Of a DNA stretch of 64,000 nucleotides, positions 49,536 through 52,054 are shown piece by piece (within the stretch, counting starts at the first letter, position 1; every line of letters starts with the position of its first letter). The notes under the pieces were generated by a model. It did not search any database. It saw only the letters and a program-made list of their open reading frames with translations, and was not told where the DNA came from. Source of the stretch: Coriobacteriia bacterium (lineage in GTDB: Bacteria; Actinomycetota; Coriobacteriia; Anaerosomatales; Anaerosomataceae); the NCBI GenBank assembly GCA_030651765.1, contig JAUSBY010000005.1, forward strand, positions 62,001 through 126,000, written 5' to 3'. The position numbers and the translations under genes are program-made.

Positions 49536-50552
49536 CTACTGCATCTGCCTCAGGTACGGATACGGGTTCACGGCCGCGCCGCCACCGGGATGGATCTCGA
49601 AGTGGAGGTGTGGCGCGCTTGCCGAGGCGTTGCCGGTACTGCCGACGTAGCCGATGACCTGACCGGCGCTCACACGGCCGGACGTCACCGCGTACGAGCT
49701 CAGATGTGCGTAGTAGAACGCCCAGCCGTTGTCGGCGGTGAGCCAGATGGTCTTTCCGCCGAGACTGTTGGACTTGGAACGCACCGTTCCCGAGAGCACC
49801 GCCACGCAGGGCACCCCGTTCGCGGCCATGATGTCGGTCCCCTTGTGGGAACGTCCGCCAGAGCGCGCTGCGCCCCACGTATCGTTGTAGTAGTTGGGTC
49901 CGCGCACCGGGAAGACCATGCCGTTCGGGCCGGCCTTGGCAGTGGTCGTACCGGTCTTGGCCTTCTCGGCTGCGACCGCGGCCTTGAGCTTGGCCTGCAG
50001 CTTGTCGTACTCCTTCTGCTGCGCCTTGAGCTGACCCTCGATCCGGTCCGCTTCCTTCTTGAGCTTACTTGCCTCGGAGGCCTGGGTCTCCTTGAGAGCG
50101 TCGAGGTCGGTGCGTTTGACGTCCAGCTCCGCCTTGAGCCGGTCGACCGTGGCGATCGTCTCCGCATCCTGGCGGCCTATGCGCTGGACGTACTCCAGAC
50201 GCACGAGCATGTCGTCGAAGTCCGCCGTGGACAGGAGGATCTGAAGGTAGTCGGCGCCGCCCGTGCGGTACATCTCGGCAGCACGTTGCGACAGGCGCGC
50301 GTTGGCCTCGGCGAGCTCGGCTGTGGCGACTTCGATCTCCCTGTCGACCGTAGCCAGCTCGGCACGTGTCTGGTCGAGTGCCCAGTATGCTTTGGAGTAG
50401 GCCTCTCCGGCGCGCTTCACATCACCCTGCAGGTCCTTGATCTGGGCCTGCAGCTTCTGGACCTCAGTCTCCGCCGCGAGGGCGACTGACGAGAAGCCGA
50501 GTGATGCGACAAGTACGAGCGCGAGGAGGACTCTCATGCGAGATAGGCGCAC
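49536..50552 (-). CDS. Secreted M23 (LytM-type) peptidase with coiled coil, EnvC-like
   Basis: 338 residues. Signal peptide (basic start, then LLALVLVASLGFSSVALAAE), a long coiled coil (about 30-190), then an M23 peptidase domain. Zinc ligands are intact: GGRSHKGTDIMAANG (His and Asp) and APHLHFEIHPGG (HxH), with YYAHLSSY between. It likely cleaves peptidoglycan cross-bridges, or activates other hydrolases if EnvC-like. The GTG at 50552 is chosen because GGAG is five bases upstream; ATGs on either side lack a site. It lies between the PASTA gene and the TPP riboswitch. Confidence 0.9.
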   Translation of the reverse strand: MRLSRMRVLLALVLVASLGFSSVALAAETEVQKLQAQIKDLQGDVKRAGEAYSKAYWALDQTRAELATVDREIEVATAELAEANARLSQRAAEMYRTGGADYLQILLSTADFDDMLVRLEYVQRIGRQDAETIATVDRLKAELDVKRTDLDALKETQASEASKLKKEADRIEGQLKAQQKEYDKLQAKLKAAVAAEKAKTGTTTAKAGPNGMVFPVRGPNYYNDTWGAARSGGRSHKGTDIMAANGVPCVAVLSGTVRSKSNSLGGKTIWLTADNGWAFYYAHLSSYAVTSGRVSAGQVIGYVGSTGNASASAPHLHFEIHPGGGAAVNPYPYLRQMQ

Positions 50553-50606
50553 GGTGTCTCCGTCCATTTCATCAAGCGGTACCGCGATAGTGTACACGAA
50601 CAGCCC

Positions 50607-51686
50607 TTAGCGGGAAGCGAACGCCGTGCCGACGGCGCGGTACACCGCCCGGGCAACCGAGTCCGCCCATGCCGGATCGGTCATGCGGACACGATCCGCC
50701 TCGGCCATGACGTCGCCGACGATGATGCGGACTCCGAGCTGCGGGAAGGCCGCCAGAATCGGGTCGGGGGTAGCCTGCGGCTCGACGACCGAGATCCCCG
50801 GGAGTTGGGCGGCGCGCGTCACCGCGCGTGCAAGGTCCATGGAGGCGTTCAGGGAGTCGGCAGATGTACCCTCCGAGGTCCGGTGTAAAGCGCGGAGGCC
50901 GGCCTCTGACGTTCGGCCAACGTCGATGCCGATCAGCAGGTCGCCGTTGGAGGACCGGGCGGCCTCGGTGCGCGCGTCGATGGAAGGTGCGGTCTCGGTG
51001 GCCGAGCGCGTGACCGTCACCGTGGCGCCCGCGGCCTGCAGCAGCGCACTCAGTCGGCGGGTGACGTCGAGCGCGGGATCCCCGGCGTCCACAGGCTCGG
51101 GAGGCGATGGGTCGAGGACGACCGTCACGCCTGCGAGGTCATAGGGCAACATGAGATCGCCCCCCTCGGAGCCACCGGGAACCGACAGACGAACGACATC
51201 GCCGGTGTTCACGCTCGTCCCCGGGGAGGGGAACATCTCGACGACGACGCCGGCGCTTGCCTCGGCCGACACGCCTATGACATTGACGACGAGCCCGCGG
51301 CTGACCAGCTGCGCCCGCGCCTCTTCGACCTGGATGCCGAGCACGTCTGGCAGGGCGAAGGACTGCGGGCCGGCCGAGAGGACGAGACGGACTTCACCCC
51401 CCCGCCGCATTTCGGCACCGGCAGGCGGGTCCTGGCTGACAACCGCACCTTCGGGGACGTCCACCGATACCCGTGTGCCGGTCACGGTAGCCGTCAGAGA
51501 GGAGACCTCGAAGGCTCGCTCGGCGATGTCGAGGGGCAGTCCGGTTACGTCGGGGATGACCACGACACGGGAGTTCGCCCAGAAGACGGATGCTGCGATC
51601 GCGCCCGCGATGAGTGCGACACTCACCGCTGCGGCGATGATCGCCGAGCGTGGGATAAGGGCGCGTCGTCGGTTGGGAGCTGACAT
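50607..51686 (-). CDS. Membrane protein with two PASTA domains and a degenerate amidase_3-like domain
   Basis: 359 residues. Basic cytoplasmic N-terminus, one membrane helix (14-36), PASTA repeats at about 41-107 (VVVIPDVTGLPLDIAERAF) and 108-171 (ALPDVLGIQVEEARAQL), then a domain at about 183-355. This last domain follows N-acetylmuramoyl-L-alanine amidase order (LAGVTVVLDP, LLQAAGATVTVTRS, DLLIGIDVG). The usual LDPGHGG reads LDPSPPE and the usual SIHAN-type strand reads GIDVG, so both zinc histidines are missing. Probably a peptidoglycan-binding, non-catalytic protein. There is no ribosome site; TATACT lies seven bases before the ATG, so it is probably leaderless. A start two codons earlier is less likely. 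Confidence 0.85.
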   Translation of the reverse strand: MSAPNRRRALIPRSAIIAAAVSVALIAGAIAASVFWANSRVVVIPDVTGLPLDIAERAFEVSSLTATVTGTRVSVDVPEGAVVSQDPPAGAEMRRGGEVRLVLSAGPQSFALPDVLGIQVEEARAQLVSRGLVVNVIGVSAEASAGVVVEMFPSPGTSVNTGDVVRLSVPGGSEGGDLMLPYDLAGVTVVLDPSPPEPVDAGDPALDVTRRLSALLQAAGATVTVTRSATETAPSIDARTEAARSSNGDLLIGIDVGRTSEAGLRALHRTSEGTSADSLNASMDLARAVTRAAQLPGISVVEPQATPDPILAAFPQLGVRIIVGDVMAEADRVRMTDPAWADSVARAVYRAVGTAFASR

Positions 51687-51778: not shown

Positions 51779-52054
51779 ATGCCCGCATACGACTATCGCT
51801 GTGAGTGTTGCGACACGCGCTTCGAGGTGACCCGGTCGTTCGGGGACACCACGAAGGCCGCATGCCCGTCGTGCGGTTCAGCTGCCAAGCGCGTCTTCAC
51901 TCCGGTCGGCGTCGTGTTCAAGGGCTCCGGCTTCCACAACACCGACTATCGCAAGCCCCCGGTGGACGCTGCGCCGTCGGAGAAGCCGGCCACGGGCGCA
52001 TGCCCGTCTGCGGGCACAGGCGGGTCGTGCGCGTCCTGCCCTGCTGCCGACTGA
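51779..52054 (+). CDS. FmdB-family zinc-ribbon protein
   Basis: A 91-residue small regulator-like protein. FmdB zinc ribbon at 1-45 (YDYRCECCDTRFEV and CPSCGSAAKRVFTP) with a GSGFHNTDYRK tail motif typical of the family, then a Pro/Ala/Gly linker ending in two more cysteine motifs. Function is unknown; the name comes from a methylotroph formamidase regulator. Strong GGAGGAG ribosome site. It is the second plus-strand gene inside the minus-strand run, convergent with glpX. Confidence 0.9.
   Translation: MPAYDYRCECCDTRFEVTRSFGDTTKAACPSCGSAAKRVFTPVGVVFKGSGFHNTDYRKPPVDAAPSEKPATGACPSAGTGGSCASCPAAD

Follow-up and report, generated by a model that had tools for sequence, protein, structure and literature searches.

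A conserved PASTA protein of Coriobacteriia whose Amidase_3 domain lacks the zinc-binding and catalytic residues

The window analysed here, a 64,000-nucleotide stretch of contig JAUSBY010000005.1 from a Coriobacteriia bacterium, carries on its minus strand the genes priA, def, fmt, rsmB, glpX, pseudo-amidase, M23, thiT, thiN, HD/GAF, asp23 and dak-like, with fmdB on the other strand between glpX and the pseudo-amidase gene. Family searches gave the names of rsmB, glpX, M23, thiT, thiN and HD/GAF, and the other genes of the locus were named from their sequence. The pseudo-amidase gene has the coordinates given in the preliminary description, runs on the minus strand from 51686 to 50607 and encodes a PASTA protein of 359 amino acids (identified by Pfam, AlphaFold and alignment to amidases). 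Upstream lies an ORF for a small FmdB-like zinc-ribbon protein (51779..52054, plus strand; name from sequence), the divergent position of which is conserved across the order. Directly downstream is a gene for an M23 (LytM) peptidase with a PcsB-type coiled coil (49536..50597, minus strand; Pfam M23 81.6 bits, CC_PcsB 31.7 bits), and its metal ligands are intact as described earlier, with HxxxD and HxH visible in the translation. The order rsmB-glpX-(fmdB)-pseudo-amidase-thiT-thiN is retained across the taxonomic order.

Pfam and the AlphaFold model bear out one membrane helix, two PASTA repeats and an amidase_3-like domain. A short basic tail (residues 1-12) precedes the transmembrane helix, which spans residues 13-38 (51573..51650, minus strand) according to the AlphaFold secondary structure. 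PASTA repeat 1 occupies residues 41-104 (51375..51566, minus strand; Pfam and model) and repeat 2 residues 109-170 (51177..51362, minus strand), for which Pfam finds two PASTA stretches and the model supplies the boundaries. The repeats score 95 bits with Pfam, and PASTA was found in 54/54 members of the order. The Amidase_3-fold pseudoenzyme domain follows at residues 188-357 (50616..51125, minus strand), as supported by Pfam, AlphaFold, Foldseek against the PDB and profile-profile comparison. Its match to Amidase_3 (PF01520) reaches 34.2 bits with a cut-off of 27 and covers profile positions 26-172 of 174. The same family was matched in 54/54 orthologues of the order at E <= 0.01, a few of them falling under the cut-off in the genome search.

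The AlphaFold model, run on an alignment of 54 orthologues, has a pLDDT of 88.7, and the amidase-like fold at residues 188-357 is modelled at a pLDDT of about 90. Foldseek against the PDB returned many Amidase_3 structures, the best at an E-value of about 1e-10, with target-normalised TM scores mostly of 0.65-0.79. The top structures were Ami1/Rv3717, C. difficile amidases, LytH, CwlD, CwlV and AmiA/B/C (E-values of 1e-10 to 1e-8), together with PASTA kinase ectodomains, and a profile search of PDB sequences retrieved the same two sets. The homology of the dead domains with intact amidase domains is beyond doubt because the profile-profile comparison gave an E-value of 1.1e-16 over 166 columns. 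Structure prediction and comparison with amidase structures, which the preliminary description had proposed as a check, thus recovered the amidase fold, with both His positions and the Glu position replaced.

The reference set for judging the active site consisted of 32 intact Amidase_3 domains, 31 from the same relatives and one from another class; all four catalytic-site residues are present in 32/32. Aligned to these, the pseudo-amidase has P195 at the position of the first zinc His, A201 at that of the zinc Glu, D255 at that of the second zinc His and I322 at that of the catalytic Glu. The first zinc motif, DPGH(G/Q), is replaced by LDPSPP at residues 191-196 (51099..51116, minus strand), and the second has degenerated to GIDVG at residues 253-257 (50916..50930, minus strand), so the earlier reading of a lost catalytic site holds against the full reference set. 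Among the 70 family members from the class, none has His at either zinc-His column, and 36/70 have Asp at the second; Glu is kept at the zinc-Glu column in 6/70 and at the catalytic column in 1/70. Homologues with intact ligands in close relatives, which would have spoken against a pseudo-amidase, were not found in this family. Since the Amidase_3 match recurs in all 54 orthologues and the zinc His in no family member, chance is excluded. The old active-site columns vary freely among the family (A/G/T/S; D/S/T; R/V/I/S). Judged by its residues, the domain would probably neither bind zinc nor cut.

A first search gave a match in 61/61 genomes, the weakest matches being PASTA repeats of other proteins. 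For the analysis of spread, the class-wide family comprised 70 members and the order-level alignment 54 full or near-full orthologues. In the class-wide search the family reached the lineages f17, f20 and f21, which belong to other parts of the class, likewise without ligands; in f18, f19 and f22 the matches seen span only the PASTA repeats, as in kinases. No protein outside the class matched across the dead domain in a phylum-wide sample, and the best match from outside was an intact two-PASTA amidase of a genome from another class (G577), aligned over residues 5-196. Among named genomes, the pseudo-amidase protein matched UBA2272 and a PASTA ORF of Veillonella and nothing else. The search of related genomes for the same architecture, suggested in the preliminary description, found it kept across the order and beyond.

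The amidase-domain tree places the dead domains in a single clade (support 100/100, stem 1.43) that stands apart from the PASTA-amidase clade and from other active amidases; this computation shows that the pseudo-amidases share one ancient origin. Purifying selection acts on the dead domain, whose dN/dS is 0.08 against the nearest relative (G001) and 0.28 against a relative with 62% identity (G010). Alignment, tree and dN/dS agree that catalysis was lost with the sequence kept under selection. Conservation across the order and beyond, together with the dN/dS values, rules out a recent pseudogene or decay in a single strain, and the absence of any PHROG match disposes of a phage origin. In one genome a second pseudo-amidase ORF follows the gene and resembles a duplication (L066:5491-6347; G045:C40). 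It repeats the end of the gene and the start of leuS in tandem, which makes an assembly artefact probable, and we read it as such.

In Bacillus, prkC lies between rsmB and thiN. The preliminary description placed the pseudo-amidase in the same slot and took it to stand in place of the PrkC kinase. The slot itself was confirmed, but the gene is flanked there by glpX/fmdB and M23/thiT. A full PASTA kinase is present on another contig of the genome (NCBIfam PknB_PASTA_kin, 637 bits), adjoining an ORF for FtsW plus transpeptidase and a PP2C gene, and therefore the idea of a stand-in for an absent PrkC fails. It would be most improbable, too, that the protein descends from a truncated PrkC and retains the kinase's sensor and signalling in the prkC slot. 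Besides the shared position, such a descent could draw on the PknB_PASTA_kin match of the protein, which amounts to 84 bits with a cut-off of 450 and covers only the transmembrane helix and PASTA repeats. This match is no sign of kinase ancestry, because the intact PASTA-amidase of G577 gives it too, at 99.5 bits. Pfam finds no kinase domain in the pseudo-amidase, and no kinase remnant is left.

Ten residues, D203, R210, R211, L215, A218, R320, W340, D342, R346 and Y349, reach 81-99% conservation within the dead family, which active amidases do not share, with identities of 97% for D203, 97% for R211, 99% for A218, 99% for D342 and 97% for Y349. By helical periodicity, several of the conserved residues of the first helix would lie opposite its buried face, and those of the last helix would flank its buried face. 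The near-invariant parts of the two helices suggest a binding interface; the conserved faces could instead form an internal salt-bridge network between the first and last helices. The most conserved region of the protein is the tail, at 2.36 bits per column, where R7 and P12 hardly vary. Positions 51633-51686 of the window encode this N-terminal cytoplasmic tail with its conserved basic motif, consensus RPxRRPLVPRW. Its high conservation suggests a cytoplasmic contact.

The zinc-binding and catalytic residues were lost long ago, yet the protein was kept throughout the lineage, and this makes it probably a regulator or scaffold in the remodelling of the cell wall and not a cutting enzyme. We consider it reasonably probable that the pseudo-amidase evolved from a peptidoglycan amidase into a regulatory or scaffold protein that is anchored in the membrane and works outside the cytoplasm. 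The basic tail would be cytoplasmic and the single helix would cross the membrane, while the two PASTA repeats, going by what is known of the PASTA family, would bind the cell wall. The dead Amidase_3 domain may serve as a protein-binding module, with a putative binding face that comprises D203, R210, R211 and A218 on the first helix and W340, D342, R346 and Y349 on the last. By such binding, the protein would hold a wall hydrolase or synthase in place or regulate it. The partner might be the EnvC/PcsB-like M23 peptidase linked to the gene, the active PASTA-amidase encoded in the same genome, or a division or elongation complex, which would be reached via the conserved cytoplasmic tail. The domain could also have acquired another ligand or activity.

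The preliminary description had proposed a pseudoenzyme that may control the neighbouring peptidase; the pseudoenzyme part stands, and control of the neighbour is possible but not obligatory. Dedicated control would mean that the dead Amidase_3 domain attaches to the live LytM domain, thereby switching its activity or fixing its location; we hold this as a tentative and on the whole rather unlikely explanation. It would reverse the arrangement of E. coli, where EnvC uses its dead LytM domain to bind and activate an Amidase_3 domain that is live. The M23 gene lies directly downstream on the same strand and adjoins the pseudo-amidase in 30/41 related loci of the order, counting only loci with the next gene visible, and mutual binding of Amidase_3 and LytM domains is known (PMC10268282). 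However, no locus from f17, f20 or f21 has it next to the pseudo-amidase, and f5, f9 and one f15 genome keep the pseudo-amidase but carry the M23 orthologue unlinked, elsewhere in the genome. In f7 (4 genomes), f17 and f20, searches for an M23 orthologue gave only weak non-specific matches. Since these lineages keep the pseudo-amidase, the M23 peptidase is not an obligatory partner. No insertion matching the AmiA/B regulatory domain is apparent in the dead domain either. In G577, the gene for an EnvC/PcsB-like M23 peptidase orthologous to that of the window is directly preceded by one for an intact, lipoprotein-like amidase with two PASTA repeats (L184:6795-9200; G577:C44). This pair suggests an older functional tie, but it is the only such pairing in 19 intact PASTA-amidase loci examined. 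Somewhat more doubtful still is a mirror image of EnvC-AmiB, in which the membrane-held dead PASTA-Amidase_3 protein would directly regulate a live EnvC/PcsB-like LytM enzyme and would derive from an ancestral pair of active enzymes, as still found in G577.

A purely wall-binding role, with the PASTA repeats and a dead domain that still binds stem peptides acting as an envelope tether that has no specific enzyme partner, would account for the presence of both modules within one ectodomain and for the retention of the pseudo-amidase where the M23 peptidase is missing. The unconserved columns of the former substrate site speak against retained substrate binding there, and we regard this role as unlikely. 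The same variability of the cleft makes it very improbable that the domain is an enzyme of altered, zinc-free chemistry. The conserved charged residues D203, R210, R211, R320 and D342 could be taken to favour such chemistry, but by helical spacing many of the conserved charged residues would be at a distance from the former catalytic site.

Whichever partner the regulator or scaffold protein may have, the family affects annotation, as Pfam would label it 'N-acetylmuramoyl-L-alanine amidase' and this is wrong. It also provides a defined, testable protein for the control of wall remodelling in environmental relatives of the Actinomycetota. To our knowledge, regulation of wall cutting outside the membrane by dead hydrolases has mostly been described for LytM factors, and CwlM, the known case among Amidase_3 proteins, resides in the cytoplasm. 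An Amidase_3 pseudoenzyme that is conserved, extracytoplasmic and joined to PASTA repeats would represent a second type of dead-hydrolase regulator. In the open-access literature we found nothing on a pseudoenzyme for an Amidase_3 amidase, nor on PASTA combined with Amidase_3; what appeared on a catalytically inactive amidase concerned ActS.

The closest known systems include active proteins. The pseudo-amidase has the fold and domain order of Amidase_3 amidases (Ami1/Rv3717, LytH, CwlD, AmiB), but it lacks both zinc His residues, the zinc Glu and the catalytic Glu, and its zinc-loop region is shortened. Active PASTA-Amidase_3 proteins, a type found in many Actinomycetota genomes (e.g., G000:C14:225920 and G577:C44:65994), likewise carry PASTA repeats followed by Amidase_3, whereas they have all catalytic residues, form a separate clade and occupy other loci. 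The genome studied here has such a second, intact PASTA and Amidase_3 gene beside an integrase-like gene (G000:C14:225905-226828), and separate intact amidases occur alongside the pseudo-amidase in the related genomes examined. With PrkC/PknB PASTA kinases the protein shares the transmembrane helix, the PASTA ectodomain and, for Bacillus, the rsmB-thiN slot; it differs from them in having no kinase domain and in coexisting with a separate PASTA kinase.

Among inactive proteins, the dead LytM factors EnvC, NlpD and DipM share with the pseudo-amidase a peptidoglycan-hydrolase fold without activity, and they regulate autolysins; EnvC and DipM are known to control amidases as well as further autolysins (PMC10268282, PMC10336132). 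Their dead domain is LytM; in the present protein the Amidase_3 domain is the dead one, and the LytM domain of the adjacent gene has its ligands intact. CwlM of mycobacteria is, like the pseudo-amidase, an Amidase_3 homologue without zinc-coordinating residues, and it serves an essential regulatory role (PMC4946905), though any residual enzyme activity of CwlM is a matter of dispute (PMC6180346). Going by its published description, CwlM is a cytoplasmic protein that PknB phosphorylates and that acts on MurA, degeneration affects only its His ligands, and no PASTA repeat or membrane helix is reported for it. The pseudo-amidase, on the other hand, has an N-terminal transmembrane helix and a PASTA ectodomain in the AlphaFold model. 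The family differs from EnvC, DipM and CwlM in both domain make-up and location.
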